A stretch of 33,417 bases of DNA, taken from the NCBI GenBank assembly GCA_937858325.1, contig CALMAB010000611.1:1-33417 (forward strand). The letters are read 5' to 3'. The notes below the pieces were generated by a model. The model did no database searches. It had not been told where the DNA came from and was given only the letters and a program-made list of their open reading frames with translations. Position 1 is the first letter of the stretch. Each line of letters starts with the position of its first letter. The stretch comes from an uncultured Acetobacteraceae bacterium. GTDB lineage: Bacteria; Pseudomonadota; Alphaproteobacteria; Acetobacterales; Acetobacteraceae. A program made the position numbers and the translations under genes. Shown here one piece after another: positions 11,520-28,344 of the stretch.

Positions 11520-11662
11520 GGGTTCTGGCTCCTTGTCCAATCGGAACGCCATGCCTGCAGCAAAGTTGTCGCCGCATTGTCCACGCGCCAACGGCTTTGT
11601 GCGCCGGGCGAAGAATGCAGGCAAGATGGGCTGCGCGCCACGAGGGGAGGAATGGGACGCCG

Positions 11663-12568
11663 ATGCCGCCATGGGTGCCGATCACGCTGGCCGCGGCGCT
11701 GTTCCAGACCTGGCGCACGGCCTTGCAGCAGCGTCTGCGCGGCCATCTCTCGGTCGGCACGGCCGGGCTTGTGCGCTATCTGTATGCCGTGCCGGTCGGG
11801 CTGGTGCTGTTGCTCTCCTACTGGGCGGCAAGCGGGGCCGTGCTGCCGGTTCCAACCCTGGTCTTCGTTCTCGACTGTGCGGCAGCGGGATTTGCTCAGG
11901 TTGTCGGTACGTCCTTGCTCATCATGGCGTTTGGGTACCGTAACTTCGCTGTCGGCACGGCCTACGCCAAGACCGACGCGGTGCAGGCGGCGCTGCTGTC
12001 ATGGCTGTTACTGGGCGAGGCGCTGGCGCCAGTGGCATGGTTCGGCATCGCCGTCGGCGCTTGCGGTGTGTTGACCTTGTCATTGGCTGGACGCGGTTTG
12101 CACGTCGGAGAACTGCTGCGCGCTACGGTGCAGCCGGCGGCCTTGTGCGGCTTGGGCGCCGGCGCCGGCTTTGCCGTGGCTGGCGTCGGCATCAAGGCCG
12201 CGACGGTGGCGCTTGCCGCTTCGAATGCCGTGCTGGGCGCATTGTTCGCGTTGGTGGTGACCAACGTCCTGCAAACGTTCATGCAGGGTGGCTACATGGC
12301 TTGGCGCGAGCCGGCAGGCCTGCGCGCCGCGTTTTCGTCATGGCGCAGTTCGGCTTGGGTCGGTGCGCTTTCCGCCGGAGGGTCCGCATGTTGGTTCGCA
12401 AGCTTTGCCTTGGCGCCCGTGGCCCTTGTGCGGACCCTGGGCCAGGTGGAAATGGTGTTCACCTTGCTTTTCAGTCGGTTTTACCTGAAGGAGACGCTGC
12501 GCAGTGCAGACATGGCCGGGCTGTTGCTGATCGTATTCGGGGTGGTGTTGGTTTTGCGGTTTCACTGA
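11663..12568 (+). CDS. EamA/DMT family transporter
   Basis: Multiple hydrophobic helices; C-terminal FALAPVALVRTLGQVEMVFTLLFSRFYLKETL; start ATG 11663. Confidence 0.85.
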   Translation: MPPWVPITLAAALFQTWRTALQQRLRGHLSVGTAGLVRYLYAVPVGLVLLLSYWAASGAVLPVPTLVFVLDCAAAGFAQVVGTSLLIMAFGYRNFAVGTAYAKTDAVQAALLSWLLLGEALAPVAWFGIAVGACGVLTLSLAGRGLHVGELLRATVQPAALCGLGAGAGFAVAGVGIKAATVALAASNAVLGALFALVVTNVLQTFMQGGYMAWREPAGLRAAFSSWRSSAWVGALSAGGSACWFASFALAPVALVRTLGQVEMVFTLLFSRFYLKETLRSADMAGLLLIVFGVVLVLRFH

Positions 12569-13053
12569 ACCGGCGACCTGGCTGAAACGTCAAGCCGAAA
12601 GAGTGCAGGTTCGACGGTCTATGCTGGGTGAGTGAGTGAATGAGGACTATGCTTTGCAGCGTTCTCGCCATCCCTTCCCGTCTCTCCTTCGGCAACGCTG
12701 TTGCGGGTGCGTTGTAGCAGGATTGATGCACGTACTTCCGCCGCGGGCCGCAACATGCTAAACGCGATCCGCTCGAGCAGCACGGCAGTCTGAACACCCC
12801 GTGTTGCGCTGGCGAATGACCCATAGAACGCGGCGTCCACAAGCGAAAGTAGGGCGCGGTCCATCCCACCGCAGAGAATGGTGCCGCGCTTCCGGGCGGC
12901 CCTCAAGCCCGCCTTCGGCGCCGCTGACGCGGTGCTGCGCAGGCTTGCCCGCCGCCCGGAAGCGCGGCGCGGGGAACCCGTCGGGACGGGAAGCGCCAAC
13001 AGGTGTTCGCCGCCGCGGGCGTCGAACAGGAAGCTGGTTCAGCAGCAAGGGGG

Positions 13054-15339
13054 TCACGGCAGGGCAGGCAGATCCAACGACAACGTCTCGGGCCGCAGGG
13101 AGACACCAGGCGGCGCCTTCACGGTTCGACGCAGTTCAGCCGGATCGCCAACCAGCACAACCGTTTCCACGCCACGCGTGACCGCCGTGTACAGGAGGGC
13201 GCGGTCCAGGATGCGGCTGCGCGACACCGGGACAATCACCCGGCGGAATGCGGAGCCCTGGGCCTTGTGGACCGAGATGGCCCAGCCACGGGTAAGATGC
13301 TCCAGGTCGGCCACATGGACGCGGTCCGCAGCGCCGTCGTCGAACTCAAGCCAGGCTCCGCCATCGGCAAGGCGACACACCATCCCAAGCGCGCCGTTGA
13401 TGAACCCGGTGAACATGGGCTCGCCGCTCACCGGATCGAGCAGCTGCTCACCGTTCGCTCCACGGAGGGGCGACTTGCCATAATCGTTGTGCAACCACAT
13501 GACCTTGCTGCCGACAGACAATCCCCAGCCGGGCACCGGCTCCTGGCGGGCCATCCACTCCCGCTCCACCGCCTCGTTCAGCACCTTGGATCCATCGGGA
13601 CCATTTTTGAGCGGACACAGGATCTGCACGTCCATATCGTGCAAGGCATTGGCCCTGCCCAGGGCGGGAGGCCGCCCGACCATGGCCCGGAACACCCCGA
13701 GCGCCGCCTCGCCCACGCCTCCCCTGGCAGCAGGAACAAGGAAAACGCCTGGGGCGAGAGGACGGCCGGGGTCGAACCGGGGCAGGTCCGGCAGGCGGCC
13801 CGCGCGGATTTCGCCAGCCACGGCGGGGATGCCGGTGCGTTCGGACTGGCGATGCACGATGTCCAGCGTCGTCCTGGGGACCGCGGCGGCCTTCACGAGT
13901 TGATGGAACGGCGCCCCCGGCCCAATGGGCGGCAGCTGACCCGGATCACCGACGAACAGCAGGTCGACGTCGGCGGGCAAGGCAACCAGGATCCTGTAGA
14001 GAAGCGGAATGTCGATCATCGACGCCTCGTCGACCACGAGCAGCCCGCGGCGGATCGGGTCCGCCCCGGCCTCAAGGCGGCGCAGGAACCGCGACACCGT
14101 GCTCGCCTGGCGCCCGGTAGCCTCCGCGATGCGTTTGGCAGCCCGCCCGGAGAGGGCCACCTGGCGCTGACCGAACCGGGCCTGGTCCACCGCGGGCAGC
14201 GCGTCGCGCGCACGGTCCGAAGCCGCCAGTACCGCGCGCACGGCCGTGGTCTTGCCGGTCCCCGCGCCACCGCACAGCACAGACATCGGGCTGCTCGCGG
14301 CCATCCGAACTGCCTCGCGCTGCCCTGGGGACAGTGGGTATCCACTACTCGCCTCAAAGGTCCTGACGGCCTCGTCCACGTTCAGATGGACTACGTTGGT
14401 CCGCGGTTGAGCCAGGCGCTCGCAGAGGATGCGTTCGATCTCGCGCTCCATGAACCAGGCGGCGCGCCCTTGGAGCAGGCCGTCCGGACCACGGATGATG
14501 CGCCCGGCCTCGACCGCATCACACACGGCTTGCGAAGCGGAAACCGCACAGCGCGGACCCAAAACGCCCGAGCAGTACGTCGTCAGCTCCCCTTCGGTCG
14601 CGGCTGTCCGTCCGGCCTTCCAACGCCGGGAGAACACCTCGTCGATCGCGGCCATGCGGCGCCTGCGGTCGTCGGGCGAGACGCCCAGCCGGAACGCGCG
14701 TTCGTCCACCGACCGCCATGGCTCCAGCAGGGCGAGCGCATAGGGATCGTCAGCGATCCGCCGGATGGCGCCACGGCCCCAAAGACCAGCCGCGGCCGCC
14801 GCGGTGCGTGGGCTGACGCCGTAGCGATCGAGCCAACGGAAAACCTCCACCTCGTCAGCGAGCAAGCCGAAACCCGTCACGACCGAGATGGCGCGCTCGG
14901 CGCCGATGACCCGAGCGATGGCGTCGACGTCCCCCGACCTCACCACGTCATAGAGGCGCTCGCCCAGTGTCGACCACAGCCGATCCGCCGTCTTCCAACC
15001 CACGCCGGGAAAACGAGCGTTGGTCGCGAGATACCGGACGATGGTCCGGCCCGAGGGCAAGAGAGGCAGGGAGACCCGCGCGTGGATCTGCGGGCCGAAC
15101 TCGGCATGGATCCTGGACGGCCCCGTCACCCGCCATGTCTCACCCGGCTGCGGGTCGCGCGCCGCCGTCCCTGTCGCGATCACGACCCGCCGGAGTTGCC
15201 CATCCGCACCTCGCCCGATCAGGATTCCGCCGCCGATTGGGCTGGGATGGAACGACGTAGCGGCGATCTCGTCGGTCTCATCCCCTTCGGCGAGCGAACG
15301 GCCCGGCACGCGCTCGGTCGGGGCCAGCGACCAGTTCAC
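13054..15339 (-). CDS. RecD2-like SF1B DNA helicase (AAA family ATPase)
   Basis: GGAGTGKTTAVRA (Walker A), LLVVDEASMID, FVGDPGQLPPIGPG, VHRQSER, WAISVHKAQGSAFRRVIVPV, RALLYTAVTRG; helix-hairpin-helix-like FPGVGWKTADRLWSTLG; GTG start overlaps upstream stop (GTGA). Confidence 0.88.
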   Translation of the reverse strand: MNWSLAPTERVPGRSLAEGDETDEIAATSFHPSPIGGGILIGRGADGQLRRVVIATGTAARDPQPGETWRVTGPSRIHAEFGPQIHARVSLPLLPSGRTIVRYLATNARFPGVGWKTADRLWSTLGERLYDVVRSGDVDAIARVIGAERAISVVTGFGLLADEVEVFRWLDRYGVSPRTAAAAAGLWGRGAIRRIADDPYALALLEPWRSVDERAFRLGVSPDDRRRRMAAIDEVFSRRWKAGRTAATEGELTTYCSGVLGPRCAVSASQAVCDAVEAGRIIRGPDGLLQGRAAWFMEREIERILCERLAQPRTNVVHLNVDEAVRTFEASSGYPLSPGQREAVRMAASSPMSVLCGGAGTGKTTAVRAVLAASDRARDALPAVDQARFGQRQVALSGRAAKRIAEATGRQASTVSRFLRRLEAGADPIRRGLLVVDEASMIDIPLLYRILVALPADVDLLFVGDPGQLPPIGPGAPFHQLVKAAAVPRTTLDIVHRQSERTGIPAVAGEIRAGRLPDLPRFDPGRPLAPGVFLVPAARGGVGEAALGVFRAMVGRPPALGRANALHDMDVQILCPLKNGPDGSKVLNEAVEREWMARQEPVPGWGLSVGSKVMWLHNDYGKSPLRGANGEQLLDPVSGEPMFTGFINGALGMVCRLADGGAWLEFDDGAADRVHVADLEHLTRGWAISVHKAQGSAFRRVIVPVSRSRILDRALLYTAVTRGVETVVLVGDPAELRRTVKAPPGVSLRPETLSLDLPALP

Positions 15340-15746
15340 GATGGAAGCTTCCCCGTCTCGGTCATCAAGCGTTCCATACGCCGGAACCGCTCCAGCTCGG
15401 CCCGCAGCGAGGCGTTCTCGACCATGAGGCGCAGGTTCTGCGCTTCCAGCGCGGCACGGTCTGCGTCGAGCTTGGCCTTGTCCTCATGGGCAAGCTCGGC
15501 ACGGGCGAGTTGATCGAGGTGCCGCGTCCGATCCGCCTCCTCGGCCTCGCGGACCAGCTGGGCGCAGCGCGGATTGGTCTGGAACACCTTGCGGTCGAAC
15601 CCGCACTCCTCGGCGAGCTTGGAGCGGTTGAGCTCCCCGTTGTAGCGTGGCAGTGGCCTGTCACCGTAGCCGGACAGCACGGCTACGAGCGCCTGCACGT
15701 TCTCCTCCGCGACCTCACGGCCGCTCTTGCCGGTTCCGGCCGCCAT
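15336..15746 (-). CDS. Small HTH plus coiled-coil protein
   Basis: LNRSKLAEECGFDRKVFQTNPRCAQLVREAEEADR then coiled-coil LDADRAALEAQNLRLMVENASLRAELERFRRMERL; TGATG coupling upstream, GTGA downstream. Confidence 0.75.
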   Translation of the reverse strand: MAAGTGKSGREVAEENVQALVAVLSGYGDRPLPRYNGELNRSKLAEECGFDRKVFQTNPRCAQLVREAEEADRTRHLDQLARAELAHEDKAKLDADRAALEAQNLRLMVENASLRAELERFRRMERLMTETGKLPS

Positions 15747-16258
15747 CAGCCCTCCCGTCTCCTTCGCGGAGCGGGCCCGGTTGGGGGCAGGGGCATCACC
15801 TCGGCATCAGGCATGGCGCCCAAGGCGCGCAGCTGCCGCACCGCGCCGTCATAGCCGTCGAAGAACCTGGCCCATGCCCGCAAGCCGCCCATCTCGCCGA
15901 CCGCCTGGATCAGGGCCAGGTGCGAGGCAGTGAGCAGAGCCACCTTGCGTTCGAGGTCGGCGGCGCGCCCCTGCTCCCGCGCCAGTGCCGCCGTGACGTT
16001 GGTCCTGGACGTCTTGTCCGACTTCTCGATCTGCCTGCGAATGCGCACCTGCTCGGCTTGGTGGTCGGCCAGCACGGCCGCCCGCCAGGGATCGCGCGTC
16101 AGGGAGGACGCGGCCTCGACCGACCCCATCCGGCGCACAGCAGCCCGCGCGGTGATGGTCTCGTCGTCATCGAGCATCTCTTCCAGGGTCACGAGCAGGG
16201 CACGGTCAAGAGCCGCCGCGGAAGCGGCCTTGCGGGCAGGAAGGGGGTGCTTATCCAT
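15746..16258 (-). CDS. Small putative DNA-binding/coiled-coil protein of the recombinase operon
   Basis: MDKHPLPARKAASAAALDRALLVTLEEMLDDDETITARAAVRRMGSVEAASSLTRDPWR...; start ATG 16258 overlaps the upstream stop by 8 nt; layout similar to Tn554 TnpC-type proteins. Confidence 0.7.
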   Translation of the reverse strand: MDKHPLPARKAASAAALDRALLVTLEEMLDDDETITARAAVRRMGSVEAASSLTRDPWRAAVLADHQAEQVRIRRQIEKSDKTSRTNVTAALAREQGRAADLERKVALLTASHLALIQAVGEMGGLRAWARFFDGYDGAVRQLRALGAMPDAEVMPLPPTGPAPRRRREG

Positions 16259-18530
16259 CCAAGACCGTCCTGGGCTCCATGAGCTTGGACAGGTCCGGGC
16301 CGTCCGGAAACGGTGCCTCACCCGCAGGCGTGCCCAGGATCTTTCCGATGTTCTCAAACACAGTTCGGGCGTGCGCCAGTTGATTGTCGCGGCCGATGCC
16401 GCCCTTGCGGCCCTCGATGATGTAGATGGCCTGCTCGGTCCTGCGCGCCAACGTTTTCAGGTTGTCTTGGTGCCGCTTGTTCCCGGTGCTCACCAAGTGA
16501 CAGCAGCCGTTGAAGCACTGCAAGTGCTTTGGGCATGGCTCCTGGGTAAAGCCGTTCACGCAGAACCCGTAAGGGGTGACGTGGAAGCCGTCCGCCTCGG
16601 CGGCAAGGAATTGGTAGGCCACCGTGGCACCCTGTTCACGCATGATGCGCTTGAACTCATCCACGACAGCCCCCCTGCCGCGGCCTGCCTTGATCATCTT
16701 GGCCACGATGCGGGCCTTCTCCGGCAACACGTCGGCCTCTGGCGGCAACGACATGGCCTCCAGTTCCTCAGCCAGGCTGCGATGATCATAGACGTGGCTC
16801 TGCACCACGCCTTTCCGATCGAACCGCTTCGTGATCGCCGCATCCGAGATCCCCAGACGGAACAGTTCTCCGTTCTGGAGATGGCGCAGAGCGTGGCTGT
16901 TCAGGGCGTAGGCACGCTCGGCCTCGGTTTCGCCGTAGCGGGCGAACAGCCCATCCTCGACGCCGCTAAGCTGTCTTATGATGTCGTCGGAGGTCAGGCG
17001 GCCAACGGAGAAGTACCGGCCAACGTCACACGCTCCGCCATTCCTGCCTTCGCTGACCGCCCGCTTGGGCATCAGGAACAGCATCTCGTACGCGGGCAGG
17101 GTGCCGCCGCCGAGCAGGGGTAGGGGATGCGTGTCCGAGAGCTTGGTTCTCATTTCCAATGCGACATGCCGTTCCAGGTCGGCCACAAGGGCGTGCAACT
17201 CGTTGAGGTCGCGCCTGCCGTCGCTGCGGACACGACCATCTGCCGTGCGCAGAGGCGGTCCACCCTCGTCCTCCCACCGTTTCCAGAAGCCATGGACCGG
17301 CATCCGAAATGCCGCCGTGCCAACCTGCATCTCCGCGATCGTGTCCATTTCGCGCTCGTTGAAGGTCCTCAGGTAAGCTGCGATCTCGTCGTCCAGAATG
17401 ACATTCTTGATGACCGGATTGCCCGTCAGGCGCGTGTAGAGGTCGGGCAAGGGGATGAGCGCGTCAAACGGGAACTCCGGAAACGACCGCCCCGCTTCGA
17501 CCTGCGCCTTGAGCCGACGTCGCAGCGGTTCGGTCAGAACTCGAATCTCGTCCAGGGTTCCCCTGAGGATGTCCTCGAACTGGGCCGGGACGTGCTGGAA
17601 GGTCTCGGTCAGGAGTGCCGAGTCCTCGTCGGCACCTTGCTGCTTGCCCGCGAAATGCCGGATCAGCATGGTCGAGGACACGCCGCCGACCAGCCCGGCC
17701 GGACGTCCCTCCAAATCGACGTGCTGCTGCGTCCGCTCCCAATCGGCGGGTATGGAACACGCCTCGCTGACCCGGAACCCGCACAGAAGCAGGACGCGCA
17801 GAATGGCGAACCTGAGCTTGTCAAGGAAGGTCAGCGGCCTGCGGGTGAACACGATGTCCACGAGCATCCACAACTTGGCGTTGCCGGGCAGCTTGTCCTC
17901 TGACCGCCGCTCGTAGAGCGACGCTCTGAGTTGAACAGGATGGGGACCAGGGGAGGTGCCCCGCTCCCGCATGGGCAGGACATGCGCGAGGGGGCCGTTG
18001 TCGCAGAGATGGCGCGCGTCCAGCACACCGCGGATGACTCCCTCCAAGTGGTTCGCCAGCGCGCCTGATGGCTGGACCGCCTTGGCCATCTCATGCGCGA
18101 ACCGAACGTCGTCGGCGGTGAGGTTCCACGGTTCAGCCCCGGAACTCGCTTGCACGCAGGTCGAGAGCACCCGCAGGGGGCGCACGACTTGGCCAATGAC
18201 ATGAGCTGCGGTGTTTCGTTCGACCAGCACCTGCCGGAGCGCGACGGCCTTCACCAGATCGCGCCAATGCTCCGGCAAGGTGAAAGGCGCCAAGCACTCG
18301 TGCCCATTGGCGGCGAGATGCTTGTTGAGCACCGTGAGCGTCCTGGCGTCGCTTCCAAGGTTGGACAGCTTGTAGCTGGGAGGTGGCGCGGCACCTGTGA
18401 TCGCAGTGACGTCCCACGCCTGGTCCAAGGGCACTGAGCCGTCTGGCTCGACGGGAACATCCCAGGGCAACCCACGCCGTAGGGCCATTCCGCGGGCGCC
18501 ATCGATGAACGCGGTGAAAATGGCGTTCAC
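16251..18530 (-). CDS. Large divergent tyrosine recombinase/integrase-like protein (759 aa) with C-terminal Cys-rich segment
   Basis: FAILRVLLLCGFRVSEACSIP (box I), LNSHALRHLQNGELFRLGISDAAITKRFDRKGVVQSHVYDHRS (HxLRH, Tyr), CVNGFTQEPCPKHLQCFNGCCHL; GTGA start overlap. Confidence 0.78.
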   Translation of the reverse strand: MNAIFTAFIDGARGMALRRGLPWDVPVEPDGSVPLDQAWDVTAITGAAPPPSYKLSNLGSDARTLTVLNKHLAANGHECLAPFTLPEHWRDLVKAVALRQVLVERNTAAHVIGQVVRPLRVLSTCVQASSGAEPWNLTADDVRFAHEMAKAVQPSGALANHLEGVIRGVLDARHLCDNGPLAHVLPMRERGTSPGPHPVQLRASLYERRSEDKLPGNAKLWMLVDIVFTRRPLTFLDKLRFAILRVLLLCGFRVSEACSIPADWERTQQHVDLEGRPAGLVGGVSSTMLIRHFAGKQQGADEDSALLTETFQHVPAQFEDILRGTLDEIRVLTEPLRRRLKAQVEAGRSFPEFPFDALIPLPDLYTRLTGNPVIKNVILDDEIAAYLRTFNEREMDTIAEMQVGTAAFRMPVHGFWKRWEDEGGPPLRTADGRVRSDGRRDLNELHALVADLERHVALEMRTKLSDTHPLPLLGGGTLPAYEMLFLMPKRAVSEGRNGGACDVGRYFSVGRLTSDDIIRQLSGVEDGLFARYGETEAERAYALNSHALRHLQNGELFRLGISDAAITKRFDRKGVVQSHVYDHRSLAEELEAMSLPPEADVLPEKARIVAKMIKAGRGRGAVVDEFKRIMREQGATVAYQFLAAEADGFHVTPYGFCVNGFTQEPCPKHLQCFNGCCHLVSTGNKRHQDNLKTLARRTEQAIYIIEGRKGGIGRDNQLAHARTVFENIGKILGTPAGEAPFPDGPDLSKLMEPRTVLDG

Positions 18531-20107
18531 GCCCGGACGGCTCCCTGGACGGCGGCCTCGAGATCAAGGATCACCTTCTGCACGGCATCCAGCATGATGC
18601 GTAGCTGGACGAACGCCGGGGACTGCCGTTCGCCACGGCTTTCGGCATGGAAGAAGCTGACGACTTCGCGGAAGTCGGCCAGGACCTCTCGATGGATCTC
18701 GGGCTCATCGATGGGTATGAACCGGCGGCAGGTGTAGCAGGAAAGGGCGGGGTTCAGGGAGCAGAGGCTCTGGCCCAGCTTGCATGCGCCGATGCCGCTG
18801 ACTGGAATGCCGTGCGGCACCGCGCCGATCTGATTGTCGCTTGGTTTGTCCGCCAGGGCGTCCCGGCCAATATACCCGTTCCGCGCGACTTCCACGATCC
18901 GGCTGTAGATGGGCGAGACAGCCAGGGCCTTGTTGATGAGCGGCCCTTGGGCGGCCGATGCCTCGAAGTAGATCAGGGATGTTTCCCAATGGGAGTGTCC
19001 AAGGAAGTTCGCCACCTCCTCGATGGAGGCCCCGGAGTCCACGAGCCTCTGGGCAACGCTGTGGCGCATGTCGGTCGCGGTTCGGCGCGTGCCGGTCACA
19101 GCCTCAACCGTGTCCCCGATGGTGGCGATGATCTCCTTAATCGGGAGGGGAAACGCCTTGTCGGAGCTGTTCAGGTTCCGACCGGAAGCAGCTTGCTCGG
19201 CCGCGCGGCGGCGCTGCCAATCCGCGAACGGGGCTGCCCATTCGCGCTTGACCTTGCGGACAAACGGCAACTTGTCGCGCGTGTTCCGTTTCTTGGCCCT
19301 GAAAGCGGTGAAGTGGACGATGGACCTCCCGTCGCCGCCCTTGTGGGTTCGCAGGTTGGCCAGGTCGATGCGGCCCATCTGTATCGGGCGGAGGCCGTGC
19401 TCGTAGGAGAGGCGCAGGAGGCAGTGCTCCAGCAGTTCACGGTCCGGAAGATGCTCGCCCGCCTCGACTCGGCGGCTCACCGCGTCAAGCCGTTCGATGA
19501 TGAGCGCCTCCTCGACCGTGGTCAGGATCGACACGCCGGACAACACGTCCTGGTAACTCTTCGAATTGGTCTTCGGCCACCGCAGCGTTCGCACAAATCC
19601 GGCGTGGCCCTGTTGCCACGTCCCGAGTGCCATGTCGCAGAAGAAGTAGAGCAGCGCCTTGACCGCATACGCGACGACGGGATCGCCCGACGCCCGGACC
19701 TCGGTCTCCCACACGTCAAACCACTCGTGGATAGGCCGTTCAAGTGCCGCCAGAAACCATGCGGTGCCCCGTTCCAGCATGATCCTTCGAAGGCCACGGT
19801 AGATCTCATAAGCGGTGACGACGCTGTTCTCCGTGATCTGCCACGCGATGGCTTGCCTGAGCAGTTTCTCGACGGATGCGTCATCTTCGACAGTGAGATC
19901 GAACCTGAAAGTCCTGGTGTCGGACTGAGCTGACCACAGCTGCGTCGATGCTGGGTTGGCGATGGTCCTGATGCTGTCGTCGTACTCGTCCAGGTAACGC
20001 AGATGAGATGGTAACCGGGGCAGGGCGGCAATCATGGTCCTCGCGCCGTCGAAGGCGGTCGGGAGAGGGGCGTCTTGGGAGGGACTGGGCGGCGTTGCCG
20101 TGCTCAT
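18527..20107 (-). CDS. Tyrosine recombinase/integrase-like protein (526 aa) with C-terminal Cys segment
   Basis: LLRLSYEHGLRPIQMGRIDL (box I), RRTATDMRHSVAQRLVDSGASIEEVANFLGHSHWETSLIYFEAS, CKLGQSLCSLNPALSCYTCRRF; ATGA start overlap. Confidence 0.82.
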   Translation of the reverse strand: MSTATPPSPSQDAPLPTAFDGARTMIAALPRLPSHLRYLDEYDDSIRTIANPASTQLWSAQSDTRTFRFDLTVEDDASVEKLLRQAIAWQITENSVVTAYEIYRGLRRIMLERGTAWFLAALERPIHEWFDVWETEVRASGDPVVAYAVKALLYFFCDMALGTWQQGHAGFVRTLRWPKTNSKSYQDVLSGVSILTTVEEALIIERLDAVSRRVEAGEHLPDRELLEHCLLRLSYEHGLRPIQMGRIDLANLRTHKGGDGRSIVHFTAFRAKKRNTRDKLPFVRKVKREWAAPFADWQRRRAAEQAASGRNLNSSDKAFPLPIKEIIATIGDTVEAVTGTRRTATDMRHSVAQRLVDSGASIEEVANFLGHSHWETSLIYFEASAAQGPLINKALAVSPIYSRIVEVARNGYIGRDALADKPSDNQIGAVPHGIPVSGIGACKLGQSLCSLNPALSCYTCRRFIPIDEPEIHREVLADFREVVSFFHAESRGERQSPAFVQLRIMLDAVQKVILDLEAAVQGAVRA

Positions 20108-21372
20108 CGCGCATGAATTCCTGCGTCGGGTTCCGGGAACACGCCGCCCTCACGCTCGAGCTGCCTGAGTTGTCGCAGAACGCCGACGCGGTCATCGAAC
20201 TTGCGCTGCCACACTTTCTTGAGCCGGTCCTCGAAGTAGGCGCGGGCATAGTGCTGGGGCATGTCCGATGACTTCGACCAGCCGAAGAACGCCCTGAGCT
20301 CCTGTAGGGCCAAGTTCATCTCCATCCCGGATTCGATGAACTCGCTGAGCCGGAACACGGCGCAGGTGTGCCGGAAATCGTGAGGCGAGATGGTCTCGCT
20401 GTGCATTCCCGCACGGAGAGCGGCTTTCGCAGCGTCCGACAGGGCGTTGGAGAGAACCTCAAAGATGGCGTTCACCGTCCGGACCGCGAGCGGCTTTCCC
20501 TGGTTCGACATGAACAGGTGGGCGCTGTCCTGCTTGCCCCGATGATTGTCGACGAAGTGGTCGACGATGGTTGCAATCTCCTCCGCAACCGGGATCTGAC
20601 GCTGGGAAAGCTCCGTCTTGAGACTGGGCCGCTCGTAACGCGGGTCCACGTCGGCACACGGCTCGATGTTCATCCAATGCACGATCTCGCCGATGCGACC
20701 GTCGATCCCGTCATGGATCGAGTTGGCGGGAAGGATGAGGGCCTCGCCGCGCCGGAGGCCCTGGTGGAGGTAAAGCAGGAACAGCGCATGGTTTCGCCAT
20801 CTTGCCTGCTCGGTCCGGAACGGGTTCTCCGGCGATTCAGGATCGGTCAGGGTATAAAGCTCCTCCACGACAACGGCGGGAAGCGCGCGCACCAGAGGGC
20901 GCTTGCGTTTCGGAGCGGACGGACGGAGTTGCTTGTGAAGCTGGTCGAGGTAGCGCAGATGAGCCTCGGCTTCGGCCAGTTCGTGGCCGCCTGCGCCTCT
21001 CACCAAGCGATCGGTGATGTCCCGGACGAAGTCGATGGCCGCCATCCAACTCTCCGTGCGGTCGTCGGCGGCCACTTGAGCTTGGTTGCGGAGCGACACG
21101 AAGTAACTTTCCAGCGCCGTTTCGAGATGATTGAAGTCGCGCTTGGCGATCAGCCGGTCCAGGCAGTCCTCTCCGAACTGCTCCTGCGCGGACACGTACA
21201 GCCGCTCGATCCGCATGAGCCGAGCATCGAGCGTGCCTGCGGCCAGATCCGCGCCATGGAGCGTCTGCCAGACCGATGCCCAATACCTCGGACGCCCTGT
21301 GTCCGCGCTGACAAGCACGCTGCCTGTCAGCGAAGGTGGTAGACCAGGAGCAGCAGGGCGGACACGGGGCAT
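20104..21372 (-). CDS. Tyrosine recombinase/site-specific integrase (422 aa), first gene of the minus-strand operon
   Basis: LLYLHQGLRRGEALIL (R), SLKTELSQRQIPV (K), ISPHDFRHTCAVFRL (HxxR), LRAFFGWSKSSDMPQHYARAYF (W, Y); start ATG 21372 (MPRVRPAAPG). Confidence 0.88.
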   Translation of the reverse strand: MPRVRPAAPGLPPSLTGSVLVSADTGRPRYWASVWQTLHGADLAAGTLDARLMRIERLYVSAQEQFGEDCLDRLIAKRDFNHLETALESYFVSLRNQAQVAADDRTESWMAAIDFVRDITDRLVRGAGGHELAEAEAHLRYLDQLHKQLRPSAPKRKRPLVRALPAVVVEELYTLTDPESPENPFRTEQARWRNHALFLLYLHQGLRRGEALILPANSIHDGIDGRIGEIVHWMNIEPCADVDPRYERPSLKTELSQRQIPVAEEIATIVDHFVDNHRGKQDSAHLFMSNQGKPLAVRTVNAIFEVLSNALSDAAKAALRAGMHSETISPHDFRHTCAVFRLSEFIESGMEMNLALQELRAFFGWSKSSDMPQHYARAYFEDRLKKVWQRKFDDRVGVLRQLRQLEREGGVFPEPDAGIHAR

Positions 21373-21495
21373 GGTCGCGACAATGGGCCGACCCGCCGAT
21401 GGCGGCAAGATCCCGCAACACGCCAACATGCAGTTTGTGGGAAGGGGCGTTGCAACTTTCAGGAGGTCTCAGGCCTCGATCACGCAACATCCCTG

Positions 21496-21525
21496 AACAT
21501 GCAGGACGGCCCGATAATGCATGTT
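21496..21525. promoter_or_regulatory. Inverted repeat AACATGCA-N14-TGCATGTT in the divergent region; third copy AACATGCAG at 21425-21433
   Basis: Arms 21496-21503 and 21518-21525, perfect 8 bp, beside an AT-rich patch (about 21515-21560). Confidence 0.45.
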
Positions 21526-21596
21526 ATGGAATTTCACATATGAAGATTCTTTATGTCATCCATGTCAACTAAGGAGCCGACTGGGTTGCGGCTTAG

Positions 21597-21632
21597 CGTC
21601 GTTGACGTTATTGCCTTAAGGTGTCAACGACG
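21597..21632. promoter_or_regulatory. Inverted repeat CGTCGTTGAC-N16-GTCAACGACG immediately upstream of the tnpA-like gene
   Basis: Arms 21597-21606 and 21623-21632, perfect 10 bp; 10 nt before the ATG at 21643. Confidence 0.55.
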
Positions 21633-21642
21633 GTGATAGCTG

Positions 21643-22830
21643 ATGCATTTACAGCGCCTTCTCATGCCCGATGGCCGAACGTCGTGGACCGTTTACGACG
21701 GCGATGACGTGGTAGACGAGGTACGAGAGTTCATCCTCCACTTGGAAGCTCTGCGGTTTGCCCCGAACACGGTCCGGCACTATGCCCGGCAGGTCGTACG
21801 GCTCGGGAACTTCCTCGCAAGCTCCGGCAGCACCTTCGCTGATCTTACGCCGATGATGTTTGATCGCTTCATCACTCTGATCGGCAGGAATGGCCGCAGG
21901 TTCGACACCGTTGGTCAAGCTATGAACATCGTCACGTTGCGCAAAGAGCACAGCACCGTTTCGGCCTCGCTGCATAACCAAGTTCTCTTTGCTGTGAAGG
22001 CGTTTTACGAGTTCGGCGATATGCGACGCCACGCCCTAGCATCAATCCACAAGGGCTCGCGCGGTCCGGCAATCGATGCATATAAGCCGTTCCTTCAACA
22101 TGTCCTGGCTCGCAAGGCGCAACGACCCAGGGAGGCGCGGTCGGATTTGACAGCAAAGGCGCGGTCGGCGCAGCGCGCAGCCGAGTTCCGACTCAAGCCG
22201 GACCAAGTTCTTAAAATCGTTGAGGCCGCGACCACGGGGCGCGACGCCTTCCTGGTTGTCCTTTTGTATGTCACCGGTATGCGCATAGGGGAAGCGCGTG
22301 GCCTTCTACACGAGGACATGCGCCTCGACGAGGACGTGGTTTGGGTGACGCCCCGACATCTTGAGAATGGAGCCCGCGCTAAAGGCGGAAGGGCCAGGCC
22401 AATTCCCGTTCCGGGATTTCTCATGAGGCTGTATGAGGACTACATTGCCTCGGACGATTACCTGCCCGCATTCGAGACCGGGACAGATTTCGTGTTTTGC
22501 AACATCCGGAAAGGCCGGATCGGCCGCGGCCTGACCGAGCCTAATGTCTACGAGATCCAGCGGGCTCTCATCCGTCGTTCCGGCGTGGAGTTCACCTGGC
22601 ATCGGTTCCGCCACACTCACGCAAGTGAGGCCATTGCACAGGGTTACAACCTTCTGGACGTGGCAGACCGGCTCGGGCATGGCAGTCCCCAGACTACCAA
22701 TGCCATCTACAAGCACTTGTTCAACTCTGAATACAGGAAGATGCTGATCAAGGGCCACAAACACCTTGAAGAGCATCTGGGCATAGCAAATCGCCGCATC
22801 GTCACGGAGGAGCAAGCCAAGTGGCTCTAG
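21643..22830 (+). CDS. Tn554 TnpA-like tyrosine recombinase
   Basis: VTGMRIGEARGLL (R), FTWHRFRHTHASEAIAQGYNLLDVADRLGHGSPQTTNAIYKHLF (HxxR, H, Y); N-terminal SAM-like core-binding domain; followed by TnpB/TnpC-like genes. Confidence 0.87.
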   Translation: MHLQRLLMPDGRTSWTVYDGDDVVDEVREFILHLEALRFAPNTVRHYARQVVRLGNFLASSGSTFADLTPMMFDRFITLIGRNGRRFDTVGQAMNIVTLRKEHSTVSASLHNQVLFAVKAFYEFGDMRRHALASIHKGSRGPAIDAYKPFLQHVLARKAQRPREARSDLTAKARSAQRAAEFRLKPDQVLKIVEAATTGRDAFLVVLLYVTGMRIGEARGLLHEDMRLDEDVVWVTPRHLENGARAKGGRARPIPVPGFLMRLYEDYIASDDYLPAFETGTDFVFCNIRKGRIGRGLTEPNVYEIQRALIRRSGVEFTWHRFRHTHASEAIAQGYNLLDVADRLGHGSPQTTNAIYKHLFNSEYRKMLIKGHKHLEEHLGIANRRIVTEEQAKWL

Positions 22831-25037
22831 CCGTTGTCCTGGCCCCTCCCCCGCAGGACACCTATGTCGGCGCATTGACAGGGTTCCTCAACCGTGTCTC
22901 GCCTGCGCTCCTCATACGCGACCGGTGGGGCTTCGACATCCTTCTCGATGTTTTCGGCATCGGTCCGGACTCCGGCCTGTATTCTAAGGCGAGTTGGCCA
23001 CTGGCTCGGCGGGAGTCGATCATGGCGCGGGGAAAGCTCATGTTGGATGGCGCAGCCGACCGCACCGGTTTCCTTGCCGACCTGGGTTTTGATTTCACAG
23101 CCGTTCCGGAACCTTACAAAACCGAGCTCAAGGCGTTCTTCGCCTGGCGCCTGTCGAGACCGGTGAACCGGACCTATGACTGGTATGTGAGGAGCGTGTA
23201 CCTCATCGCGTTCGTGACCGACTGGGCTACATCGGGACGCCGCGAGTGGCCGAGCAGCCTCATCACCTTCGGGCATCCGATCGAACAGGGCGAGGGCAAT
23301 GGCAGCACGCGGTTGCGCTTGCTCATGGAAAGGTGGCTTTTAGCGGGTAATCGCTCGACCGTGCAACAGAAGCAACGGTACATCGCGATAGGAAGACGTG
23401 ATCTGGAGATGGTGGAGCGGGCCTATGGCGGCGTCAACAGCATGCCCGCCAACGACCTTTTGCGCACACTCGTCCTTCTCCGGGAGAGGGGAAAACCAGT
23501 TGGACAACGCGATTTCCTGCTCAAGGAGGACGTGTTCCCCGAAGATCTGTTATTCCCGAACGGACGCAGGGAAGATGCCCTGAACTTCTACAAGCTTCGG
23601 CTCCCATGGCTGCGTGCTGCCGCGCGGGCCTACTTGCTTGACAGGATCGACTACCGAGAACTCGGCCCGACGACGACCGAGACGCATCTCGCGCAGTTCT
23701 GCTACCTCGAATGTTGTTTGTTCAAGACGCATTCGGTTCCGGAGCTGCGTCACATCACCCAGGAGTTTGTCAGCAGCACCTTTCTGAGCTGGGGAAACTC
23801 GAAGGGACTGGCCGGAAAGAACTGGTATTCCGACTCAATCAACCTGCTCTCCTGGGCCTGCCTCAACTTGTCGGCCGACGGCTGGCCCTCACTGACATTC
23901 GACAAGCGGAATCTCAGGAAAGTTCATGGCGAGTGGCCGGGTGGACGTGGCTACGACGAAAACATGAGGAAGCGAACCATTCCAGAAGAGGTGGTTGAGC
24001 AAATCTTCGGAGGTATCGAGAGCGGATCATTTCCCATTTTGTTGAAGCGGTTGTTCATTATCTCACGCTACACTGGCATGAGGGCGGGTGACCTGCATGA
24101 GCTTGACTGGGACTGTCTCAAACCTGATCCAGATGATGACCGTTTTTGCCTACTCACCTTCTTCCAGCGGAAAGTCCAGAAGTGGAACACTAAGCCGTTG
24201 CTTGTAGACGACGCAGCCCATGCGATGGTCATTGAAGCGGTCAACGCTCAAAAGCAGGAAGCGGTCAGCCAGTTCGGAAAACGGCCGAAGTACTTGTTTG
24301 GCGTTCGGTACGGTGATGCCGAGATCCCCCTGGGCACAGATCACTCCCGCGAGGAGATCGCGAGATGGTGCGTCGAAAACCGGGTTGTGGAAAAGGATGG
24401 CAAGGTCCATCGGTTTCGGTGGCACTCACTGCGGCACTTCTACGGAACGGAACTGGCGCTTCTCGGGCACGACATAACCCTGATCCAGATGGAACTAGGC
24501 CACGCCAGTCCGGACATGAGCATGGTGTATGTGAACCAACGGCTCAGGCTGAAAAAGAAAGCGGTGCTGGAGAAGGGCGCAGGACGATATATCGATATCA
24601 AGGGCCAAATCGACGAGAAAGTCGCGGAGTTGGCTGTCCGCAAGGATGCGTCCCTCACGGTCGATGTCCCTGGAGGTCTTTGTTCCATGCCGCAACAGAT
24701 CGGCGAGTGGTGCGAGCACAACCGGGCGTGTTTCGAGTGCGTGTTCTTTCGAGCCGACGTTGAGCAAATCTCGTTCTTCGAGAGTGAGAGAAAGGCCTTG
24801 ACCAGTACCGTCCGGCGCCTTGGTGCAGAAGCCGACACGTTTGAAGCCGATGGGCGTGCAAAAAGTGCCGAGATTGGGCGCAAGCGCGCCCAGCGCAGCG
24901 CAAACGCGCTGGAAACCGTCAACACTGTCTTGGCCACGATCAAGGCGAAGGGGACCTACAGTGGCACGGAACGCAAATACAAGCGGGCTGGCGGCGTCGG
25001 CGACGGAGCGCAGTGTCTTGGCCAGGAGGAAGGTTGA
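22821..25037 (+). CDS. Tn554 TnpB-like tyrosine recombinase (738 aa) with C-terminal Cys motif
   Basis: YTGMRAGDLHELDWDCL, FRWHSLRHFYGTELALLGHDITLIQMELGHASPDMSMVYVNQRL, CSMPQQIGEWCEHNRACFECVFFRADV; GTG start overlaps tnpA-like stop by 10 nt. Confidence 0.87.
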   Translation: MALAVVLAPPPQDTYVGALTGFLNRVSPALLIRDRWGFDILLDVFGIGPDSGLYSKASWPLARRESIMARGKLMLDGAADRTGFLADLGFDFTAVPEPYKTELKAFFAWRLSRPVNRTYDWYVRSVYLIAFVTDWATSGRREWPSSLITFGHPIEQGEGNGSTRLRLLMERWLLAGNRSTVQQKQRYIAIGRRDLEMVERAYGGVNSMPANDLLRTLVLLRERGKPVGQRDFLLKEDVFPEDLLFPNGRREDALNFYKLRLPWLRAAARAYLLDRIDYRELGPTTTETHLAQFCYLECCLFKTHSVPELRHITQEFVSSTFLSWGNSKGLAGKNWYSDSINLLSWACLNLSADGWPSLTFDKRNLRKVHGEWPGGRGYDENMRKRTIPEEVVEQIFGGIESGSFPILLKRLFIISRYTGMRAGDLHELDWDCLKPDPDDDRFCLLTFFQRKVQKWNTKPLLVDDAAHAMVIEAVNAQKQEAVSQFGKRPKYLFGVRYGDAEIPLGTDHSREEIARWCVENRVVEKDGKVHRFRWHSLRHFYGTELALLGHDITLIQMELGHASPDMSMVYVNQRLRLKKKAVLEKGAGRYIDIKGQIDEKVAELAVRKDASLTVDVPGGLCSMPQQIGEWCEHNRACFECVFFRADVEQISFFESERKALTSTVRRLGAEADTFEADGRAKSAEIGRKRAQRSANALETVNTVLATIKAKGTYSGTERKYKRAGGVGDGAQCLGQEEG

Positions 25038-25419
25038 GGAGACAATATCCGCGATGCGGGCGGCTGGCGAGCCGATCGCATACAACACGGTCGCGCAAAA
25101 AGCCAAGGTAAGCCGTCAGTATTTGTATGAGAACTTCAAGGATACCATCAACCAACTCCGGTCCCGGACCAGGCGCCAGACCGTCATGCTGGACGGGGAG
25201 GAGGTCGTCGTGCGCTCGGCGGGCCGGGCTGCCACCATCGAACTCGCTTTGCGGAACAAGGTCGCCCGACTCGAAGCTGACCTCAAAGAGGTCCGGAAAG
25301 AAGCTGGATTGTTGAGGAACCGCGTCGAGAAGGCATTGGGCGAAGCAGAGGAATGGCGCCAACGCCACAAGCAGGCTGTATCCGAGCTGCTTGAGCTTCG
25401 CAGCAGGGCTCAGCGCTAG
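24961..25419 (+). CDS. Tn554 TnpC-like (DUF6262-type) small HTH/coiled-coil protein
   Basis: VARNANTSGLAASATERSVLARRKVEETISAMRAAGEPIAYNTVAQKAKVSRQYLYENF...RNKVARLEADLKEVRKEAGLLRNRVEKAL; third position after TnpA/TnpB; start GTG 24961. Confidence 0.78.
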   Translation: MARNANTSGLAASATERSVLARRKVEETISAMRAAGEPIAYNTVAQKAKVSRQYLYENFKDTINQLRSRTRRQTVMLDGEEVVVRSAGRAATIELALRNKVARLEADLKEVRKEAGLLRNRVEKALGEAEEWRQRHKQAVSELLELRSRAQR

Positions 25420-25422
25420 ACC

Positions 25423-25460
25423 CACCTCTTGGTGAGACTGGACGTGCGGTCACCTCTTGG
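25423..25460. repeat. Direct repeat CACCTCTTGG just downstream of the tnpC-like gene
   Basis: Copies at 25423-25432 and 25451-25460, 28 bp apart. Confidence 0.5.
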
Positions 25461-25499
25461 AGCCGACCTGCCTTCGGCAGCACGGCCGCGCACAGCGGA

Positions 25500-25581
25500 G
25501 GTCAAAGGTGGCGAAGCCAGGACCGGAGCCACGCGCAGTCGCCTTTTGGCGGCGAGCATGGCGAGGACCCACCCTTTGACC
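25500..25581. repeat. Imperfect inverted repeat GGTCAAAGGTGG / CCACCCTTTGACC (one 1-nt bulge)
   Basis: Arms 25500-25511 and 25569-25581. Confidence 0.45.
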
Positions 25582-25667
25582 GGAGCGAGCACGGTCGTAG
25601 CTTATCAAGGCGGATGGCCCGCGTCGGCGCCACTAGGTAGTCGCTGGTGCTGGTAGGCGTGTGACGA

Positions 25668-27362
25668 TTGCCATGTAGCCGAATTTTAGAGACCCCCAAA
25701 GGGAGCACGAGGAACAAACTAAGCATCAAGCTCTATAACCGGCGGCGTACACTCCCTCTTTACCGGCCCAGGACATGCTGCGAGGTTGGCGGCCCATTTG
25801 CCGGAGCCACGACGCTGCCATCGGATAACCCGCCCTCGCCCTTCGTCAGCGCGCTGGCCGATTTATGCAGGAAACATCAGCTGAGCTGGCAGGAGTTCGC
25901 CAATCTCACCGGCCTAAGCGACGTTGTGTAGCAAAGTTGGCGGGATGGCGCTGTTCCGCCTCGGCGCGACTTCGATAGCTTGATACACCATATGGGGAGA
26001 GCCGATCCGTTCGATCGCGAGGATATCAGTCATCTGGTCGGCGGCTATTACCGTAGTGCCAGCAGGCGTGGCCGCAGCAAGAGCAGATATCACATTGACA
26101 TGCTCGAAGCGAATATTCGAACGAGACTTAGCAAGCCCAAAACCGAATTACCCCCACTGGACAGGACTCCGTTTTCCTTTGTTCTCGAACAGGCGCAAGT
26201 GGAGCTAGGGCTTTCGTTTATTGAATATGCTCAAATGATTGGCGTGACCGAACGGACGCTTTATACCTGGATGCAAGGCACTATTCCTTCGAGAGGGGCG
26301 TTCGAAAAACTGCTCAAACGAGTCTTGGATAGAGAGCGGGTTAGTAAAGGAACAATCGATCTTCTGCTCTCAACATATGGGAAAAGCACCGGCATTGGAT
26401 TTCATTCTGAAAAGATTGAGATTGTCGATGGAAGCGTCGTCGACAATTCACATAATGCCTTTGAGTCGATCCTGCGCGCGGACACGCCGCCCCCTGCAAT
26501 CCCCAAGCAAACCAGCCCCGGCCCACCCCTAAAACCCACCAGCACCGGCTTCGACATCGCGCCCCAGTCGTCGCCGGAGGCCGAGCGCGAAGATTCCGAA
26601 CTACAGCGCCTGCACCAGCAGCTGCGCCGACTGGTCGACCGCCTCACCGCATCAATGCCGCGGATCAGCAACACGCACAAAGAGCTTGCGGATCAGTTCG
26701 CCGCCTATGCGGAGTTCCTGGCCCCCGACCTCAATGACCTCGACATCACCAGCTTCTGGGCGGTCGGCACGGGCCTCGGCGCGCATATCCGGGCGCTCAA
26801 CCGGGCCGGTCCGAACGTCATGACGCCAGAGCTTGAGCCTGCGCTCATGGCGCAGTTCGAGACGCTAATGGCGGTACATGCCGCGTTCGTCCTCGGTTTC
26901 TCCGCAGCCAGGGAGATGCAAGCCCGCATCGCGCAGGCCCGCGCGGCCGCTCAGGACGACCCGGAGTTGCCGACGCGAGTGCAGTCGGTCCTCACGTCGA
27001 TGGTGAAGACGCCGCATCTCCTGGCGGACAAGGCGCGTCTACTCGTGGATGCTCTCGTGCATGGCATTCCCGCGGCGCCTGAGGCCGCTTTTGATGTGCT
27101 GTCGGGCCGCTATGAGACGGCGAGGAACGGCACCCACGCCTTCATGCGCGCCCTTCACCCGATCATCGAGGTCGCAGGGGCGGTTGGCCTGCTGAGCTTC
27201 GTGCACGCCACCGTGAGCGGCGACCAAGTCGATCTCATGCTGACGACCGGCGCCTACATCAACGCGCACATGCAGGAACTCATGGCGCTATACCGAAATG
27301 ATCAAATCACCACTGACTGGCTGAGATGGGCGCACCTGCGGCTGCAACGCCGCGACAAATAG
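25668..27362 (+). pseudogene. HTH protein with tandem HTH units, interrupted by in-frame TAG at 25929-25931 and lacking a clear start
   Basis: Same frame before and after the stop; unit 1 SPFVSALADLCRKHQLSWQEFANLTGLSDVV*QSWRDGAVPPRRDFDSLI aligns without gaps to unit 2 TPFSFVLEQAQVELGLSFIEYAQMIGVTERTLYTWMQGTIPSRGAFEKLL. Confidence 0.72.
25992..27362 (+). CDS. Possible residual HTH protein translated downstream of the TAG (second HTH unit plus helical C-terminal domain of unknown function)
   Basis: Open from TTG 25980 / ATG 25992 to 27362. Confidence 0.5.
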   Translation: MGRADPFDREDISHLVGGYYRSASRRGRSKSRYHIDMLEANIRTRLSKPKTELPPLDRTPFSFVLEQAQVELGLSFIEYAQMIGVTERTLYTWMQGTIPSRGAFEKLLKRVLDRERVSKGTIDLLLSTYGKSTGIGFHSEKIEIVDGSVVDNSHNAFESILRADTPPPAIPKQTSPGPPLKPTSTGFDIAPQSSPEAEREDSELQRLHQQLRRLVDRLTASMPRISNTHKELADQFAAYAEFLAPDLNDLDITSFWAVGTGLGAHIRALNRAGPNVMTPELEPALMAQFETLMAVHAAFVLGFSAAREMQARIAQARAAAQDDPELPTRVQSVLTSMVKTPHLLADKARLLVDALVHGIPAAPEAAFDVLSGRYETARNGTHAFMRALHPIIEVAGAVGLLSFVHATVSGDQVDLMLTTGAYINAHMQELMALYRNDQITTDWLRWAHLRLQRRDK

Positions 27363-27522
27363 CCGCTTAACGCGGCGTCACAACCAATAACGCACTTTTC
27401 CACGCCCCTATTCACGACTCGCGATAGTCCGGGAGCTTAAGCAGGGAAAGACACAGACCCGCTGTGGGTGACATGTCATCTACGTCTTGCTTGCGGAATT
27501 TAAGGCTCAGTCGCAAAGACCC

Positions 27523-28344
27523 CTAGGTACATGCAGAGTGATCCTGCTCGGAAGCGGAAATTTCCAGCAGCAACCCGTCATAGGCCGGCTCGATGTGCGC
27601 CGGCAGATTCCGCTTCATCCACGCCCAATCGATGTCATAGCCCATGTGCGTCAGCACCACCCGACGCGGACGCAGACGCTCGACCCAATGAAATACCTGC
27701 TCCAAGTTCGCGTGGGTCTTATGCGGCTGGCGCTGGAAACAATCCACGAGCCAGGTGTCCACACCGGCCAACGCCGCGAACGCGGTCTCGTCCAAAATGG
27801 CCACATCGGTCGAGTACCCAAACCCGCCGATGCGCAGGCCGAGCGTCGGCATGAATCCGTGGTCCTGCTCGAACAACCGCACCTGCAGGCCCGCAGCCTC
27901 GACCGTCTGCCCCGGCTCGACCACGCGCGGCGCAAGCACCGGCCGAAAGAAATACGGCTGGTTCCAGGGCTGGAACGCGTAATCAAAGCGCTTGTTCAGC
28001 TCCGCCAAGGTCCGCGCCGTGGCGAACGCATCAATGGGCCGGTTCACGATCCGGTTGAGAATCCGAACGTCGTCTATGCCGAGCACGTGGTCTGCATGAG
28101 CATGTGTGAACAGGATCGCATCCACCCGCGGTATCCCGCAGGCCAGCAACTGGCCTCGCATGTCGGGCGACGTGTCCACCAGCAGTCGCTCGCCCGCATC
28201 GCTCTCGATGACGATGCTGGAGCGGGTGCGGCGATTGCGCGGCTCGTTCGGGTCGCAGGCGCCCCAATCGCCACAGCCGTCGTCCCCGCCCAATTGCGGC
28301 ACGCCTGCTGACCCGCCGCAGCCAAGGATGGTCACACGCGGCAT
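27523..28344 (-). CDS. MBL-fold metallo-hydrolase (PhnP-like)
   Basis: MPRVTILGCGGSAGVPQLGGDDGCGDWGACDPNEPRNRRTRSSIVIE, LFTHAHADHVLGIDDVR. Confidence 0.9.
   Translation of the reverse strand: MPRVTILGCGGSAGVPQLGGDDGCGDWGACDPNEPRNRRTRSSIVIESDAGERLLVDTSPDMRGQLLACGIPRVDAILFTHAHADHVLGIDDVRILNRIVNRPIDAFATARTLAELNKRFDYAFQPWNQPYFFRPVLAPRVVEPGQTVEAAGLQVRLFEQDHGFMPTLGLRIGGFGYSTDVAILDETAFAALAGVDTWLVDCFQRQPHKTHANLEQVFHWVERLRPRRVVLTHMGYDIDWAWMKRNLPAHIEPAYDGLLLEISASEQDHSACT

Follow-up and report, generated by a model that had tools for sequence, protein, structure and literature searches.

GInts (ginABCD genomic islands) have, at one of their ends, a single operon of three recombinase genes of rising size and a gene whose small product resembles TnpC; they excise as a circle, which requires all four genes, and insert site-specifically between short, imperfect direct repeats, leaving the target working (Bardaji et al., 2017; PMC5385486). 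Strand-biased circularizing elements (SEs), which form a strand-biased circle without an empty site, and Tn554 also combine several tyrosine recombinases and a small protein with overlapping genes, target specificity and a 6-bp footprint at the ends (PMC10214605), and IMEX insert at dif, which is regenerated, by use of host XerCD (PMC5357621). We analyzed a 33,417-nucleotide stretch of DNA from an uncultured Acetobacteraceae bacterium, here called the window (contig CALMAB010000611.1 of GCA_937858325.1, an incomplete, metagenome-type assembly, 67% complete and in 771 contigs). It holds a minus-strand operon of six genes, coding for three recombinase-type proteins (Int1, Int2 and Int3, the trio), two small proteins (S1 and S2) and a RecD2-like helicase of superfamily 1B (SF1B). 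By its sequence, this operon is the recombination core of an integrative element that is GInt-like in layout and measures about 8.9 kb (window ~12593-21514). The element is nearly cargo-free and sits against a chromosomal dif that is nearly intact at the left end of the element.

The trio and S1 are laid out like a published GInt operon, and this core is of an already known kind; what appears to be new is the swappable cassette of S2 and helicase, and the use of dif as a target. Besides these two additions, the window element differs from GInts in that Int3 retains the first Arg of the catalytic motif, which GinC is reported to lack, and in the near absence of cargo, which amounts to at least 2.5 kb in GInts. 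It shares with them the site-specific insertion between imperfect direct repeats, here of 8-9 nt and of 10-17 nt in published GInts. Only about 0.45 kb separates the helicase stop codon from the right end of the element; L011 and similar relatives do carry cargo. The window operon aligned with the GInt-type operon at ssb (L042) at 26-31%, and over parts only. SE and Tn554 elements, which we compared by layout rather than by sequence, have another gene order and no helicase, and IMEX do not share the three element-encoded recombinase-type genes. The first-pass annotation of this DNA had proposed an undescribed system. That description is too wide for the core and also for the S2-helicase pair, relatives of which occur in the Gamma-Mobile-Trio (GMT) operons treated below. 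It may stand for the swappable cassette and the dif target: in the open literature we found papers on GInts, SEs and dif, none of which mentions a helicase in GInts, and no description of a dif-targeting GInt or of a swappable S2-helicase cassette, although a prior mention in the GMT paper, which lay outside that search, is possible. The same search returned no relevant paper for GmtY/VPA1267.

All six open reading frames (ORFs) are intact, and the five overlapping junctions were confirmed by direct reading. The ORF of Int1 extends beyond the boundary used in the first-pass annotation, which corresponds to its second ATG at 21372. The same six-gene order recurs in ten intact plasmid regions (genes are broken in two of these) and at 15 genomic loci, of which 13 are complete and two are truncated at a contig end. 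The order therefore exceeds chance, and it is conserved in many genomes, among them Brucella, Mesorhizobium, Bradyrhizobium, Rhizobium and Sinorhizobium. The overlap between the S2 and helicase genes is found again in Azospirillum, in L101 and L109, and in GMT operons, and is not kept in Hyphomicrobiales: there, the two genes stand about 140 bp apart, with the gap itself conserved. This gap (L004 15217-15355 and relatives) contains repeated GCAGTGAACG, and the window has no such gap. The overlaps may imply a stoichiometric co-production of the six proteins, as the first-pass annotation proposed.

The ends of the element were delimited by comparison with related genomes. In a genome of the same genus (L045), the EamA gene and the metallo-beta-lactamase (MBL)-fold gene of the window are adjacent, with only about 65 bp between them that contain ACCCGATAA-TGCATA-TTATGGAAAGTCA; window ~12.57-27.55 kb is therefore inserted DNA. 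The empty-site sequence is present in one copy in each of three congeners, and the window target is a 28-bp succession of XerC arm, 6-bp centre and XerD arm, as in published alphaproteobacterial dif sites (Agrobacterium TAATCGCATAAGATATATTATGGAACTT, Bradyrhizobium GATTCGCATAAGGTATATTATGGAATAT; PMC2731167). Based on this pattern and the single copy in congeners, we assign the insertion target as dif. An Afipia element (L028) adjoins GATTCGCATAAGGTATATTATGGAAT, which shares a stretch of 26 identical bases with the published dif of Bradyrhizobium, and an exact ATAA-N6-TTAT core lies about 100 bp before int1 in about 20 relatives. L014 and L034 have this core with one change, and an exact core was not found ahead of int1 in the four-gene relatives L007, L013 and L020. 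In the window, the XerC arm of dif faces the gin-type element; in the Hyphomicrobiales relatives, the XerD arm does.

At the right end, about 20 relatives share CACTCACTCACCCAGC...CCGAAACCGC-ACTCTT-TGGAAC, followed by host DNA, with a window counterpart at 12593-12638. The imperfect direct repeats at the ends are TTATCGGG/CTTTCGGC in the window and TTATGGAAC/CTTTGGAAC in relatives. For L011, which has the TGGAAC segment at both ends, the empty site predicted by joining the flanks was matched over its full length and in a single piece by five Rhizobium plasmid records. One of these was read across the junction, which was exactly as predicted (TTATGGAAC-TAGGGGG). The empty-site query for L014 gave no spanning match. 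The 6-bp segment of attL is not the same as that of attR, either in the window (TCGGGC/TCGGCT) or in the Afipia element (TGGAAT/TGCGAA); the resemblance to the 6-bp footprint of SEs and Tn554 is suggestive only. In L029 (7909), L016 (22405), L012 (12285) and L034 (8765), the right end is immediately followed by another left-end-like sequence, and we read these abutting ends as the outcome of tandem insertion, or of repeated insertion, into a single dif-type site. A 30-nt inverted repeat (87%) was also noted between the helicase gene and the right end of the window element (12883-12968).

The helicase has the domain layout and the helicase motifs of RecD2, the latter conserved in an alignment of relatives, but it falls below the cut-off of the RecD2 family (TIGR01448; 348 bits versus 500, profile positions 28-698 of 713). 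A tblastn search of all plasmids identified 13 records with the helicase at 51-54% identity, every one of which also holds Int3, and the next plasmid match was at 33% or less. A degenerate copy (L012, 48%) has remnants of Int3, S1 and S2 alongside. The genome scan required exact peptide matches and was hence not exhaustive, a limit that does not apply to the plasmid search; S2 and a recombinase set were present at 16 of 16 loci with an intact helicase and upstream sequence. The fragments L037, L039 and L040 have a context or sequence too short to judge; L040 shows 10 kb of upstream DNA without a trio and is a remnant. In a tree, all 20 recombinase-linked helicases formed one clade, with 100/100 support, apart from 14 unlinked RecD2s. 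The unlinked set is mostly alphaproteobacterial and includes the fragment of an ordinary RecD2 that the host genome also contains (C468); a wider sample might yet reveal members of the clade that are not linked to recombinases. The earlier view that the helicase is locked into recombinase operons is thus borne out by both searches and by the tree; close homologues outside such operons were looked for and did not turn up.

The S2 gene accompanies the helicase beyond this group. The VPA1267 model (NF040697) matched window S2 with 50.9 bits (E=1.7e-13) and also matched 10 of 10 aligned relatives; as the score lies below the 90-bit cut-off, S2 is a distant VPA1267 relative and, by that threshold, no member. 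The helicase closest to that of the window (58%) is found in Azospirillum (L022), inserted within an M32 peptidase gene, where S2 and the helicase lie behind a trio that is only 22-30% similar. GMT, a system attributed to Mahata et al. (2024), is reportedly made up of gmtY, gmtZ and gmtX. GMT operons of E. coli (L085) and a Vibrio plasmid (L086) comprise gmtY, a GmtZ-model integrase, gmtX, a VPA1267 protein and a RecD-like helicase, the last two in the same position as in the window, with the helicase only about 28% identical to that of the window. The NCBIfam models of GmtY, GmtZ and GmtX, which do detect L085, did not match any window protein.

Among 399 Pseudomonadota genomes, the VPA1267 model had matches in 12. 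Leaving aside the window and one doubtful match, a RecD2-like helicase followed S2 in nine of the ten remaining genomes (directly in eight, after about 1.5 kb in one), and recombinase-type ORFs preceded S2. Of these operons, one lies behind ssb and one behind nrdA, both of which have been reported as places where GInts insert. Since the cassette is present at nth and M32-peptidase sites as well as at ssb and nrdA, we rejected the possibility that it depends on dif. A block of 2605 bp is 93% identical in DNA between the E. coli GMT locus L085 and L101. It starts exactly with the S2 start codon and ends 5 bp past the helicase stop codon, and no significant protein similarity was found between the trios of the two loci; the same block occurs at 83% in L102, with a third trio. 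S2 and the helicase thus form an exchangeable cassette that is found behind unrelated recombinase sets, which suggests a portable helper for moving recombinase elements. A further variant of this setting is an operon of a Rhodovastum plasmid (L021 3662-12151), in which a pair of large ORFs, recombinase-like or of no known type, comes with a RepB-primase-type ORF, a VPA1267-type protein and a RecD2-like helicase. In a tree of the trio, the window clustered with helicase-less elements, and a single clade of helicase carriers was rejected (approximately unbiased test, p=0.0007). This points to more than one gain of the cassette, or to its loss, with an uncertainty that comes from long branches.

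Table 1. Features of the window. Rows up to the right-terminal motif belong to the GInt-like element and its ends.
Feature	Position	Strand	Details
Int1, tyrosine recombinase	20104..21429	minus	441 aa; PF00589 E=1.3e-12; Arg, His, Arg, Trp, Tyr present (alignment)
Int2, tyrosine recombinase	18527..20107	minus	526 aa; PF00589 E=1.1e-8; Thr replaces box-II His (alignment)
Int3, large recombinase-like protein in GinC position	16251..18530	minus	759 aa; C-terminal Cys/His cluster
S1, GinD/TnpC-like small protein	15746..16258	minus	170 aa; directly after Int3 in four-gene and six-gene relatives
S2, VPA1267-family-like small protein	15336..15746	minus	136 aa; first cassette gene
RecD2-like SF1B helicase	13054..15339	minus	761 aa; second cassette gene
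Int1/Int2 junction	20104-20107	minus	ATGA overlap
Int2/Int3 junction	18527-18530	minus	GTGA overlap
Int3/S1 junction	16251-16258	minus	ATGGATAA overlap
S1/S2 junction	15744-15748	minus	TGATG overlap
S2/helicase junction	15336-15339	minus	GTGA overlap
attL, putative retained dif	21507..21534	plus	CCCGATAA-TGCATG-TTATGGAATTTC; matches single-copy empty site of three congeners and published alphaproteobacterial dif pattern
attR, right end of element	12593..12604	minus	...CCTGC-ACTCTT-TCGGCT, then EamA-gene chromosomal flank
Right-terminal conserved motif CACTCACTCACCCAGC	12619..12638	minus	also at right end of about 20 relatives
EamA gene	11599-12568
MBL-fold gene	27523-28344
Trio of Tn554-like element	21643-25419		three genes
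460-aa ORF of Tn554-like element	25980-27362		without family match

The family assignment of the recombinases is uneven. Pfam Phage_integrase matched Int1 and Int2, and Int3 had no match in any profile library searched, Pfam included. An Int3 profile found no match among PDB sequences, and an AlphaFold2 model (mean predicted local distance difference test score, pLDDT, 58) yielded nothing usable in a Foldseek comparison with the PDB. R253, H546 and R549 (as H546xxR549) and Y581 are invariant in 13 relatives, and it is from this motif conservation only that a recombinase fold is predicted for Int3. Residues 657-679 of Int3 form an invariant Cys/His cluster, and Int2 and the TnpB of a second, Tn554-like element in the window have similar Cys-rich tails. 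Among 387 alphaproteobacterial genomes, only the window's own copy of Int3 was found, which reflects either a rare family or a thin sample. S1 and S2 are small and rich in coiled coil. DUF6262 weakly matched 7 of 14 members of the S1 family and also detected the Tn554-type TnpC of the window. Profile comparisons of S1 with S2 and of S2 with TnpC gave no significant match, and for the latter reason we do not claim S2 as a TnpC.

The Tn554-like element (window 21535-27540, right end approximate), to which the trio at 21643-25419 belongs, a point missed in the first-pass annotation, borders the same dif on its XerD side and stands back to back with the GInt-like element. A different Int1 homologue (45%) lies beside the same chromosomal dif in congener L111 (5348-6077), where the contig ends. 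We rejected the possibility that both elements form one composite, since a congener has an Int1 homologue at this dif and no Tn554-like genes between dif and the MBL gene.

As to the role of the cassette, the reading that we prefer, with a probability of roughly 55%, is that of a GInt-like dif element with an S2-helicase cassette that acts on a DNA intermediate common to all trios. A role in mobility is suggested because the cassette always lies behind a recombinase operon and is found with many trios, and because the add-on works with so many different trios, it probably acts on an intermediate that they share. The helicase would most likely process a strand-exchange intermediate, and the strand-processing step in transposition considered in the first-pass annotation is compatible with this. 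In such a scheme, Int1, Int2 and Int3, positioned by S1, would exchange strands within a 6-bp segment on the border of dif, in the way that has been proposed for GInts and SEs. S2 would bind DNA or mark the joint, and the helicase, with a 5'-3' polarity, would unwind the strand joined by single-strand exchange, allowing replication or gap filling to complete a copied-out circle, or to complete integration. The element may pass through a strand-biased circle like that of SEs, and this would be the intermediate on which the helicase acts.

Several points weigh against such a role or narrow it. The int1-int2-int3-S1 set occurs without the cassette on Cupriavidus, Paraburkholderia, Pseudomonas and Caulobacter plasmids, and in published GInts four genes are sufficient for recombination (PMC5385486); the helicase is therefore not needed for strand exchange. 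Moreover, the activity and polarity of the helicase and the DNA binding of S2 are presumed from family membership, and the strand-biased circle of the window element from likeness to SEs. Position and breadth of occurrence, set against the four-gene forms that do without the cassette, favour at most a modulating or efficiency role.

Other functions would account for parts of the evidence. During transfer, the cassette may shield the element against restriction or nucleases of the host, as a counter-defence without a role in recombination. RecD-type helicases act on DNA ends, and a cassette that moves as a unit between unrelated trios fits a trio-independent function; we nevertheless consider this unlikely, as the cassette was found only directly behind recombinase operons and nowhere else in our samples, and S2 matches no PADLOC model. 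Slightly less likely still is a helicase that replicates or maintains the excised circle, or aids chromosome dimer resolution at an occupied dif. The location at dif, the nicked double-stranded circles that are intermediates of SEs (PMC10214605) and the RepB-primase-type ORF in L021 would agree with this, but the same cassette at the other four insertion sites shows that it is not dif-bound, and the window element yielded neither a replication origin nor an initiator.

It is improbable that the cassette is hitchhiking cargo, its position merely a frequent recombination point. The cargo of GInts does begin directly after ginD (PMC5385486), and in several cases (L012, L017 and L037) the helicase is broken or lost, but the S2-helicase order is kept, with overlapping reading frames, over very divergent lineages, and the helicase (52%) is better conserved among relatives than the recombinases (32-42%). 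Least probable is an anti-phage defence system, a role also raised in the first-pass annotation. RecD-like helicases are present in some listed defence candidates, but PADLOC gave only generic RecD-type matches for the helicase and none for the other five proteins, and the unit has the precise ends and the empty sites of a mobile element.

Beyond the window element, VPA1267 and the RecD2-like helicase might serve multi-recombinase elements (GInt-type, GMT and others) as a general and exchangeable module for copy-out, with a helicase step that completes transposition by tyrosine recombinases once a single strand has been exchanged; we propose this only tentatively. To our knowledge, a helicase step after single-strand exchange is not known for this recombinase class. 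How GInt, SE, GMT and Tn554-like elements complete transposition after strand exchange is an open question (PMC10214605), and a cassette with such clean transfers between unrelated recombinase sets offers a concrete candidate for the step that is missing, and one that can be tested. The combination of self-encoded recombinases with dif as a home would be a new lifestyle at a site that is indispensable to cells, and the element family may serve as a marker for finding dif and such elements.

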